Shown here in pieces: positions 23,128 to 27,269 of a stretch of DNA of 52,921 nt. The stretch spans positions 1-52,921 of the forward strand of contig JASHPX010000044.1 in the NCBI GenBank assembly GCA_030037905.1, written 5' to 3'. Both the position numbers and the translations under genes were made by a program. Every line of letters starts with the position of its first letter. Within the stretch, counting starts at the first letter, position 1. Under the pieces are notes generated by a model, which had not been told where the DNA came from, ran no database searches, and saw only the letters and a list, made by a program, of their open reading frames with translations. Origin of the DNA: Gammaproteobacteria bacterium. GTDB taxonomy: Bacteria > Pseudomonadota > Gammaproteobacteria > Steroidobacterales > Steroidobacteraceae.

Positions 23128-24291
23128 ATGCTGCGTCTTCTGGCCGCGCTGCCGCTGCTGATCTGGATTTATCTGCTCATCGCGCGCGGCGGATTCTGGC
23201 GCATCTCGCACCAGACGAATCCCGGGGCCGCCGAGTCCGCAGGCCGGCGCGTCAGCGCGCCGATGTCGCGCGTGATCGCTGTGATCCCGGCGCGCAATGA
23301 GGTCGCTTCGATCGGCACCGCGGTGAGCTCGCTGCTGCGACAGCAGTTCGAGGGGTCGTTGCAGGTCATCGTCGTGGACGATGGCAGCACCGACGGCACG
23401 GCCGCTGCCGCGCTCGCAGCCGCACACGCCGCAGGCGCCGCTGCCCGACTGACGCTGATACATGGGGCCCCGCTCGCTCCCGGATGGACTGGCAAGCTCT
23501 GGGCTCTGCACCAGGGCATCGAAGCAGCGCAGGCGCTGGCGCCCGATTACCTGCTGCTCACGGATGCGGACATCGAGCACGAACGTGGTTGCCTCGCCGG
23601 CCTGCTCGCCAACGCCGAGGCCGGTCAGCGCGACCTGGTTTCCTACATGGTCGAGCTATCGGTGGATACGCCTGCAGAACGTTGTCTGATCCCGGCCTTC
23701 GTATTCTTCTTCCTGAAGCTCTATCCGCCGCGCTGGATCGCATCGCCCCGGTCGAGGACTGCTGGGGCGGCAGGGGGTTGTATCCTCATCCGTGCTCGGG
23801 CGCTGCAGCGCATCGGCGGCATCAGCGCACTGCGCAGCGAGATCATCGATGACTGCGCGCTTGCGCGCGCGGTCAAGGACAGTGGCGGCAGGCTCTGGCT
23901 CGGCCTGACACACAGCGCCCGGAGCCTGCGCCGCTACGGATCGTTCGCGGAGATCGGCGGCATGATCTCGCGTACCGCCTTCAGCCAGCTGCGCCATTCC
24001 TACTGGCTGCTCGCGGCGACGCTGCTGGGACTCACCGTCACCTACCTGCTGCCTCCGCTGCTGCTGTTCACGCGCGATCCGGTTTCGGTCGCGCTGGGCC
24101 TGGCGGCATGGATTCTCATGAGCGCCTGCTACCTGCCGATGGTGCTGTTTTACGGCCTGTCCGCGGCGTGGAGTGCGTGCCTTCCGGCGATCGCCGCATT
24201 CTACGCAGGGGCGACCGTGCACTCGGCCGTGCAGTACGGCCTGGGCCGCGGCGGCCTATGGAAGGGCCGCGCGCAGGATCTGAACGCCTGA
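23128..24291 (+). CDS. hpnB: HpnB-like glycosyltransferase
   Basis: VIAVIPARNEVASIGTAVSSLLRQQFEGSLQVIVVDDGSTDGTA...APGWTGKLWALHQG...LLTDADIEH...ISRTAFSQLRHS. Confidence 0.85.
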   Translation: MLRLLAALPLLIWIYLLIARGGFWRISHQTNPGAAESAGRRVSAPMSRVIAVIPARNEVASIGTAVSSLLRQQFEGSLQVIVVDDGSTDGTAAAALAAAHAAGAAARLTLIHGAPLAPGWTGKLWALHQGIEAAQALAPDYLLLTDADIEHERGCLAGLLANAEAGQRDLVSYMVELSVDTPAERCLIPAFVFFFLKLYPPRWIASPRSRTAGAAGGCILIRARALQRIGGISALRSEIIDDCALARAVKDSGGRLWLGLTHSARSLRRYGSFAEIGGMISRTAFSQLRHSYWLLAATLLGLTVTYLLPPLLLFTRDPVSVALGLAAWILMSACYLPMVLFYGLSAAWSACLPAIAAFYAGATVHSAVQYGLGRGGLWKGRAQDLNA

Positions 24292-24339
24292 GCGGCTGCA
24301 CGTGCAGGAGTCCGAACCGCGCGCAAGAGCCCGGCCAGC

Positions 24340-24391
24340 GCACAGGGCCCGGACTGGCACAGGGCCCGGACTGGGCGCAGGGCCCGGACTG
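24340..24391. repeat. 17-18 bp tandem repeat (3 units) upstream of the amidohydrolase fusion gene
   Basis: gcacagggcccggactg/gcacagggcccggactg/ggcgcagggcccggactg. Confidence 0.85.
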
Positions 24392-24443
24392 GGCGGAGTA
24401 GTATTGCGGCTTCAATTCCACGGTCTGATGAGCTTCGGGGGGC

Positions 24444-27032
24444 ATGGCCATGAATAGACACCATCAGGCGCGGCGTGCCGGACCGCTGACGCCGCGCGCC
24501 GGCCTGACGCGGCTTGCCGCCGCCGTGCTACCGACAGCATTGCTGCTGTCGATAGTCCCTGCGCTGTCGGGAGCCAACGTAGCCAGGGCACAGGATGCGA
24601 CCATCGTGAACGCGCGAATCGCCGTCGGGGATGGCCCGGTGATCCGCCGTGGTTACATCATCGTTCGCGACGGCCGCATCGTCATGGTGGCTCCCGGGCA
24701 ACCCGCTCAGACGAGCGGCACGATCATCGATGCCATGGGCATGACCGCACTGCCCGGCTTCATCGACGCTCACAAGCACCTCAACACCAGCCCGTTGGGG
24801 GAGAAGGAGCAGATGCAGGATCTGATCGACAACGGGTTCACCACCGTGCTGTCGGCTCTCGGGCCGGCGCAGAGCAACCTGGAGCTGATCAAGAAGATCG
24901 ATTCGGGCCAGATCAATGGGCCACACATCATCGCCTCGGGACGCGTGAATCTGCGCGGCACGCCCGAGCAGGCGCGCGAGGCCGTCCGCCAGATGGCGGC
25001 AGAGGGCATCCACTTTACGGGCGAGATCGCCGTGACACCCGAGCCCACGGCGACCCCGGCAGAGCTCGCGGTGTTGCGTGCCGCGGTCGACGAGGGCAAC
25101 AAGGACGGCGTACAGGTGCTGGTGCATGCAGTTTCCACTCCGGCGATGCTGGCTGCGACCGAGGCGGGCGTGCGCCACATGGTGCATCTACCGAACAAGG
25201 ACTTCATGGGCTACGACGATGCTCAGAAGATCGTCGGCAGCGGCACCTACGTGCTCGACACGGTCAGCTTCGGCGCGCCGCTCATCGGCGTGTTTCAGAG
25301 GGATGACGTGCCGCGATTTCGCACCGGACTGGACTGGCCCGACTCCATCGCGGGAGCGAATCGCGACGCGCAGGGCCGCGCCACCGGCACCGAGGCCGGC
25401 TACGCGATGATGAATGCGCGGCGCATCTGGGATGCGAGCCACGGCCGGGGCCTCGGATACGGCAGCGATCAGAACTATCCCGTGCACGATGTGCTCGAGC
25501 ACGAGATCAAGTCGCTCATGGTGATGCTATCGGTGCCGGACGTGCTGCGCGTCCTCACGATCAACACCGCCACCTTCCTCGGCATGCAGGATGAGATCGG
25601 AACCCTCGAGCCGAAGAAGCGCGCCGACATCGTGCTGGTCCAGGGCGATCCCTTCGAGGATTTCAACAATCTGCTGAGGACCGAGGTCGTGCTCGAGGAT
25701 GGCAAGGTCGTGGTGGACAAGCGCACGAACCGCGCGCCATCGCAGGACCTGGGCTCGGCGGGCGCTGCACCGACAGCAGCAACGGCGAGTGCAGCGGCGG
25801 ATCCGATGGTCGGCACCCTGACCGCCGCGGTCGCGCGGCCCGATCAGGCCCCGGTCGAGAGCTGTGAGCGCCTGGGCGCCACGCCGCTCACGCAGGCGCG
25901 GGTGATGAGTGCCAAAGACGTGCCGGCCAGCCCCCTGCCGCAGGCAGTCTCGCAGAACGGCGCGCCCACGCAGCCGCGCGCGCCGGTCGATCTGCCGCCG
26001 ACGACGCTGCCGGCACATTGCGTGCTGAGCGTGCGGCTGGGCGACGGCCGCCGCGGCACTCTCGGGTTGCAGCTCTGGCTGCCCAGCAGCGACTGGAACG
26101 GCAATTTCCTGATGGTCGGGGATGGCAGCTCGATTGCCTCGGAAGCGATGAGCGGGGCGCTGCTGCGCGGCTATGCGGCGGCCTCCGCGGATACGGGCCG
26201 CCAGGGCGCACGCGCCCATACGCGGCAGCGCCTCGAGCTTGCGAGCCGTGCCCTGCATGAGGGCGCGGAGCAATCCAGGGCATTGATCACGGCCTACTAT
26301 GGTGGCACGCCGCGCTATTCCTATTGGATCGGCGCGATGGCGGGCGTGCCGCAGGGACTCTCAGAGGTGCAGAAGTACCCGATGGACTTCGATGGTCTCG
26401 TGATCGGCGGAGCAGTCGGTGCCGGGGGCAGCGGCAGTGGCAGCGGCGACGGCAGTGGCGACGGCAGTGGCGCCGGCGACGCGGCGTCATCGGATCTCAC
26501 CGCCTTCGCGGCACGCGGCGGGAAGATCATCGAGTATCAGCGCGGCCCCGATGAGGGTCCGGCGCCACAGGGCAGAGGCAACGCGAGGGGTGGCGATCAG
26601 CCCAACGCAGGCGCTGACGCTCGGGCAGACGCCGCCAATCAGAATGCCGTGGATGATTACCAACGCGTCGCGGACCGCAGCGGCGGGCTGCAGCAGACGC
26701 GCGGCTTCTACCGGCTGTTTCTGATGCCTGCGCGACACGCCGGTGATGGCTACCGGGCCAATTGGATCACGGTGCTGGACGAGTGGGTGCAGCGTGGCCG
26801 CGCTCCCGAGGAGGTGCTGGCCGCTCACAGCCCGCCGCCGGGCCTGAGCCTGCCTCCTGCCACGGGCCTCGTGTTCGAGCCGCGCTTCGGCGTACACACG
26901 GTTTGCGCCTACCCGCAGGTCGCGCGAGTACAGAACGGCAGTGGGGAGAGTCCAGTCGATTATCTATGCCTGCAACCTTCTGAAGTGACGGGCGCGGCGG
27001 GGGCCGGCGCGCAAGGGCCGCCTGGGCACTGA
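24444..27032 (+). CDS. secreted amidohydrolase fused to a degenerate tannase/feruloyl-esterase-like domain
   Basis: N-terminal amidohydrolase (GFIDAHKHL, VLVHAVST, GSDQNYPVHDV) followed by tannase-like sequence (HCVLSVRLGD...LQLWLPSSDWNGNFLMVGDGS...GYAAASADTG...SEVQKYPMDFDGLVIGGAV...AYPQVARVQN). Confidence 0.8.
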   Translation: MAMNRHHQARRAGPLTPRAGLTRLAAAVLPTALLLSIVPALSGANVARAQDATIVNARIAVGDGPVIRRGYIIVRDGRIVMVAPGQPAQTSGTIIDAMGMTALPGFIDAHKHLNTSPLGEKEQMQDLIDNGFTTVLSALGPAQSNLELIKKIDSGQINGPHIIASGRVNLRGTPEQAREAVRQMAAEGIHFTGEIAVTPEPTATPAELAVLRAAVDEGNKDGVQVLVHAVSTPAMLAATEAGVRHMVHLPNKDFMGYDDAQKIVGSGTYVLDTVSFGAPLIGVFQRDDVPRFRTGLDWPDSIAGANRDAQGRATGTEAGYAMMNARRIWDASHGRGLGYGSDQNYPVHDVLEHEIKSLMVMLSVPDVLRVLTINTATFLGMQDEIGTLEPKKRADIVLVQGDPFEDFNNLLRTEVVLEDGKVVVDKRTNRAPSQDLGSAGAAPTAATASAAADPMVGTLTAAVARPDQAPVESCERLGATPLTQARVMSAKDVPASPLPQAVSQNGAPTQPRAPVDLPPTTLPAHCVLSVRLGDGRRGTLGLQLWLPSSDWNGNFLMVGDGSSIASEAMSGALLRGYAAASADTGRQGARAHTRQRLELASRALHEGAEQSRALITAYYGGTPRYSYWIGAMAGVPQGLSEVQKYPMDFDGLVIGGAVGAGGSGSGSGDGSGDGSGAGDAASSDLTAFAARGGKIIEYQRGPDEGPAPQGRGNARGGDQPNAGADARADAANQNAVDDYQRVADRSGGLQQTRGFYRLFLMPARHAGDGYRANWITVLDEWVQRGRAPEEVLAAHSPPPGLSLPPATGLVFEPRFGVHTVCAYPQVARVQNGSGESPVDYLCLQPSEVTGAAGAGAQGPPGH

Positions 27033-27131
27033 TGCCGCGCCGCGGCGGCTGGGAGCACCGCCCTGGCAGCGGGCGCACTGTCTGGGCAGTGGCCGCACTG
27101 CCTCGGAGCGGCCGGCCGGCGGCGAGGCGTC

Positions 27132-27192: not shown

Positions 27193-27269
<77 letters not shown>

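Follow-up and report, generated by a model that had tools for sequence, protein, structure and literature searches.

The window, by which we mean the whole 52,921-nucleotide stretch of DNA analyzed, carries a gene whose product joins an amidohydrolase to a tannase-like domain (Table 1). It is a single open reading frame beginning at an ATG, and the layout proposed in the sequence-only reading, a signal-like start followed by an amidohydrolase and then a tannase-like domain within 862 amino acids, agrees with Pfam, which places Amidohydro_1 at residues 102-417 (E 1.5e-22, above the Pfam cut-off) and Tannase from residue 533 onward in two stretches (E 5.6e-30; 105 bits against a cut-off of 29.8). 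Near its start the protein reads Ala-x-Ala-Gln and then Asp, in alignment with the short signal peptides of relatives, and it is presumably secreted. Sequence searches of the PDB bring the amidohydrolase half closest to prolidase-like or ochratoxin-degrading amidohydrolases (8ihq, 3mkv, 3mtw, and 2qs8) and place the nearest structures of the esterase half among feruloyl esterases and MHETase. A scan for promoters and terminators came back empty. GC content is 69% and antisense open reading frames of several hundred codons also lie nearby, so the open frame of about 390 codons, which the sequence-only reading had offered as an argument against decay, is weak evidence taken alone, and the case made here rests on conservation in relatives.

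Table 1. Features of the fusion gene and its surroundings (nucleotide positions in the window).
Feature	Position	Strand	Description and basis
Fusion gene, 862 aa	24444..27032	+	Putatively secreted amidohydrolase with a C-terminal pseudo-tannase domain; open reading frame, Pfam, same fusion in G030 and G170
Signal-peptide-like N-terminus, residues 1-50	24444..24593	+	...LLLSIVPALSGANVARAQ then DATIV; read from the sequence
Amidohydrolase domain, residues 48-428	24585..25727	+	PF01979; predicted metal ligands; prolidase-like fold match
Ala/Pro-rich linker	25728..25811	+	Alignment with the separate genes of G034, G236, and G235
Pseudo-tannase domain, residues 457-850	25812..26993	+	PF07519; site table; AlphaFold; Foldseek to MHETase
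Former nucleophile elbow, GAMAG for GCSSG	26331..26345	+	Met632 replaces Ser (26337-26339); alignment
Lid scar, 12-bp tandem repeat, unit GGCAGCGGCGAC, 4.2 copies	26427..26477	+	Codes for Gly/Ser/Asp; occupies the lid position
Asp703	26550..26552	+	Aligned with the triad Asp; site alignment
His765	26736..26738	+	Aligned with the triad His; site alignment
Probable inserted segment holding only the fusion gene	24283..27108		Stretch missing in G006; comparison with G006

The amidohydrolase half follows the pattern of its superfamily, with HxH on strand 1, histidines on strands 5 and 6, and an aspartate on strand 8. Its predicted metal ligands are H110, H112, E194, H228, H248, and D342, and, as the sequence-only reading had it, the metal motifs are kept: all of these residues except E194 are invariant across 16 relatives in the alignment. 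Position 194 is glutamate in 14 of the 16; the remaining two carry a lysine one column off, and the window copy has no such lysine. In classic binuclear amidohydrolases, the bridge is a carboxylated lysine on strand 4, and it is plausible that Glu194 replaces it as the metal bridge. The residue lies in a TGE motif conserved in this amidohydrolase subfamily, where classic members have the carboxylated lysine, and the TGE subfamily might form a subtype of its own in which glutamate is the bridge. A TIM barrel is predicted, with blocks of the model near pLDDT 90 and a Foldseek match to 2p9b (E 6.2e-23), and the best Foldseek matches of this half are prolidases and carboxypeptidases. The protein resembles the prolidase, carboxypeptidase, and ochratoxin hydrolase branch of the superfamily (2P9B, 3MKV, 3MTW, 2QS8, and 8IHQ) in its fold, HxH, two further histidines, and last-strand aspartate, and differs from it in the glutamate on strand 4, an identity of only 20-26%, and the extra domain behind it. 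From the full set of metal ligands we infer that the amidohydrolase half would still work.

The esterase half has lost the catalytic apparatus of its family and kept much of its framework. In MHETase, the catalytic triad is S225-H528-D492, a disulfide between C224 and C529 that is more than 80% conserved in the tannase family ties the catalytic serine to the histidine, and in the MHETase/tannase family the lid domain confers substrate specificity (PMC6461665). Aligned with 31 lidded tannase-family proteins, the pseudo-tannase domain has GAMAGV where a GCSSGG elbow is expected, in a motif, GAMAGVPQGLSEVQKYPMDFDGLVIGG, that begins at nucleotide 26331; the nucleophile column is serine in all 31 references and methionine in the window copy, which bears out the earlier claim that the catalytic serine is gone. 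The cysteines that flank the triad are missing as well: the column before the serine and the column after the histidine each hold cysteine in 28 of the 31 references and alanine here (Ala631 and Ala766, respectively). The lid, about 190 residues long in the nearest relatives, is absent in the alignment, and at its place stands the short repeat of Table 1, at a junction that reads GSGSGSGDGSGDGSGAGD, much as the sequence-only reading had described. That reading also took the Asp and His regions to be altered; their surroundings have indeed changed, but D703 and H765 fall in the columns of the catalytic Asp and His, and with both residues probably retained, the window copy is less eroded than had been held. 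Cysteines 474, 526, 821, and 842, which are invariant in the tannase family, are kept in all three fused proteins described here, and the DFDG and RGGK motifs are present. These features, together with the predicted core and the above-cut-off Pfam match, tie the domain to the tannase/feruloyl esterase family (PF07519; ESTHER Block X, with members such as MHETase 6QG9, feruloyl esterase B 3WMT, and FoFaeC 6FAT), from which it departs in lacking the nucleophile, the triad-flanking cysteine pair, and the lid, and in sitting behind an amidohydrolase. Automatic annotation of this open reading frame as a tannase would mislead.

An AlphaFold2 model of the C-terminal 434 residues, built from 34 alignment rows, gives an alpha/beta-hydrolase core without the lid, as the sequence-only reading had anticipated for this half (pLDDT 77.7, pTM 0.78, 185 of the 434 residues at pLDDT 90 or above). 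Core strands and helices exceed pLDDT 90, and the linker and lid scar fall below 50. Foldseek ranks MHETase and feruloyl esterases first (6qg9, E 1.4e-16, TM 0.58 by query length); the rmsd over the full Foldseek alignment is 8 A because the lid and loops are missing. In a model of the whole protein from 16 rows, the amidohydrolase is good, the esterase half unusable, and no domain contact confident (pTM 0.50). Full-length alignments with added tannases were left out of folding, as the tannase rows fell on the amidohydrolase half.

The fusion is shared with other members of the family. When 217 genomes from the same family were searched, it turned up in G030 (L025:4837-7098, 753 aa) and G170 (L028:7420-9684, 754 aa), two species of another genus whose proteins are 57-59% identical to the window protein, so that the fusion is carried by three species in two genera. 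The sequence-only reading would have been weakened by a copy unique among intact relatives; in G030 and G170 the fused domain likewise lacks the serine and lid, ESRTADIAP or EGRTADVAP stands at the elbow, and Ser, Asp, and His of the triad are all lost. Outside the family, 396 genomes of the order yielded no fusion, and 369 from the class and 399 from the phylum yielded no further one; a short-peptide scan of 85,462 species genomes returned only an ordinary distant tannase. A match to residues 595-687 on contig C97 of G000 was rejected as Gly/Ser low complexity in a non-coding frame.

The unfused state of the two genes survives in a third genus, in three species (G034, G236, and G235) where an amidohydrolase gene is followed, 10 nucleotides after its stop, by a tannase gene in the same order and on the same strand as the halves of the fusion. 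The amidohydrolases are 64-66% identical to the window half, and both genes are direct relatives of the corresponding halves. Unlike the fusion, the pair encodes two separate, presumably secreted proteins, the tannases having their own signal-like N-terminus, an intact triad with GCSSGG, GWADP, and MGHC, the disulfide cysteines, and a full lid. The linker of the fusion aligns exactly with the stop codon, gap, and tannase signal peptide of these genes, and a C-terminal PPPG...GxVFxPxFG insertion is common to the fused domain and the operon tannases and is otherwise seen in the family only among the neighbours of the second tannase. Maximum-likelihood trees of both halves place the window copy in one clade with the pair G030 and G170 (support 100/100 and 100/99 in the two trees), and these in a joint clade with the operon genes (100/100 for the tannases, 100/99 for the amidohydrolases). 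The agreement between the trees of the two halves shows that neighbouring genes fused and that the esterase machinery was lost afterwards. On the simplest reading, one fusion and one lid loss predate the split of the fused lineages, and Asp and His disappeared afterwards in the lineage of G030 and G170. In G034 and G236, a second tannase lies directly behind the first. A three-gene row of amidohydrolase, tannase, and tannase is seen in genus g21 (L026:2953-7861 and L029:2545-7453), and its paired conservation suggests that the row serves a shared pathway for an ester- or amide-bearing compound.

In G030 and G170, purifying selection acts on the pseudo-esterase domain as strongly as on the amidohydrolase. 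Between these two species, the only pair for which our omega estimates (Nei-Gojobori counts with bootstrap) are reliable, the amidohydrolase has an omega of 0.117 (bootstrap 0.078-0.171) and the pseudo-esterase one of 0.119 (0.080-0.166), third positions take most of the changes, and neither domain changes length; the relaxed selection that the sequence-only reading had proposed looking for is not seen in this pair. For the esterase half of the window copy against G030, omega is about 0.29 at a dS of about 1.7, which is near saturation and makes this value only an upper-range hint of constraint. The esterase half has diverged faster, with 45% identity to G030 as against 69% for the amidohydrolase half. 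This divergence, the simple repeat in the lid scar, and the loss of the serine, cysteine pair, and lid are what one might expect of a pseudogenizing C-terminal half whose frame is still open merely through chance. Such a passenger is very improbable, however, given a frame kept in three species and two genera, structural cysteines retained, an omega of 0.12, and simulations of neutral change over the G030/G170 distance that remained free of stops in only 2-13 of 200 runs (1-7%, frameshifts uncounted). Simple decay, which the sequence-only reading had also set aside, we reject on the in-frame conservation and the omega, with the pseudo-esterase now seen to be conserved in three species. It is more improbable still that the lidless domain has some other hydrolytic or transferase activity based on Asp703, His765, or new residues: the two residues do align with the triad in the window copy, but the elbow has no nucleophile, and in G030 and G170 the domain is still under selection with the triad Asp and His gone.

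Selection could also act on the esterase shell as ballast, a requirement for folding or stability with neither ligand nor partner, where it would only prevent misfolding. Across the three fused proteins, 137 positions are identical and fall mostly in core strands, helices, and structural cysteines, as such a role would predict, the former active-site and lid regions have been free to erode, and the whole-protein model, with no usable domain arrangement, leaves room for a plain stabilizing or ballast function. An omega as low as that of a catalytic domain counts against pure ballast, though not decisively, and we regard this explanation as rather unlikely.

The IleRS encoded on the contig is 87% identical to that of a genus mate, G006, and at most 69% identical in five genomes tested outside the genus, which assigns the contig to the window's genus. 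In G006, SIR2, glycosyltransferase, and tRNA-Pro(CGG) genes are consecutive and lack the fusion gene between them; similarity between the window and G006 ends at 24282 and restarts at 27109. In the family search, the 14 remaining genus members all lacked the gene. With the empty site in G006, this absence makes acquisition probable: a single-gene segment, obtained within the family, would have entered beside tRNA-Pro, the alternative being loss in the others. The absence from genus mates, a fragmented assembly, and 5% contamination might also suggest that unrelated contigs were joined or that the contig is foreign to the genome. An artefact of this kind is scarcely credible in view of the IleRS identity and the SIR2-glycosyltransferase-tRNA-Pro order common to G006, and we reject it, since two independent assemblies hold the same fusion and in practice refute it. 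In G030, the neighbours of the fusion gene are a lactonase-family propeller, an EamA transporter, and a TonB-dependent receptor, a genomic context that would fit the import and degradation of a plant-type compound.

Some further details of the surroundings were observed. The glycosyltransferase and tRNA-Pro(CGG) (window 27193-27269) flank the fusion gene directly on either side. Just upstream of the fusion gene is an 18-bp tandem repeat, GCGCACAGGGCCCGGACT, in 4.1 copies (24321-24391), and a GGGCCAGGGCC-rich stretch similar to this repeat is found at the empty site of G006 (L096). A transposase with a DDE_Tnp_1 domain is encoded near the contig end (80-1867, minus strand).

Adjacent genes for two presumably secreted proteins, a prolidase-like amidohydrolase and a tannase-family esterase, fused through loss of the stop codon, the esterase signal peptide turning into the linker, and the esterase half lost its lid and nucleophile. 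We propose that selection has since maintained this half in a non-catalytic, accessory capacity. Taken as a whole, a fusion of neighbouring genes with a functional amidohydrolase and a selected pseudoenzyme half is the probable account of this locus. The role of the pseudo-esterase half is presumably an accessory one, most likely to stabilize or oligomerize the exported hydrolase or to hold an aromatic or ester-bearing substrate near the amidohydrolase. A more specific version, in which the tannase shell is now devoted to ligand binding or regulation and captures phenolic ester or amide substrates or presents them to the amidohydrolase, is possible and can be put forward only tentatively; our literature search found no description of a pseudo-esterase role of this capture or presentation type for the tannase family, nor any report of a tannase-amidohydrolase fusion.

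Non-catalytic alpha/beta-hydrolase domains are known from neuroligins and thyroglobulin, where a dead fold is kept as a structural or binding module. Unlike these, the domain described here belongs to a different subfamily, is bacterial, and is joined to what looks from its residues like an active enzyme, and the unfused and partly eroded states all occur within one bacterial family. What is new is the combination of domains with a pseudoenzyme half; the kinds of component were already known. The family thus displays the steps from enzyme to pseudoenzyme side by side: separate and intact, fused without serine and lid, and fused without the triad. A process that usually has to be reconstructed becomes testable on living sequences, with its last stage under measurable purifying selection.
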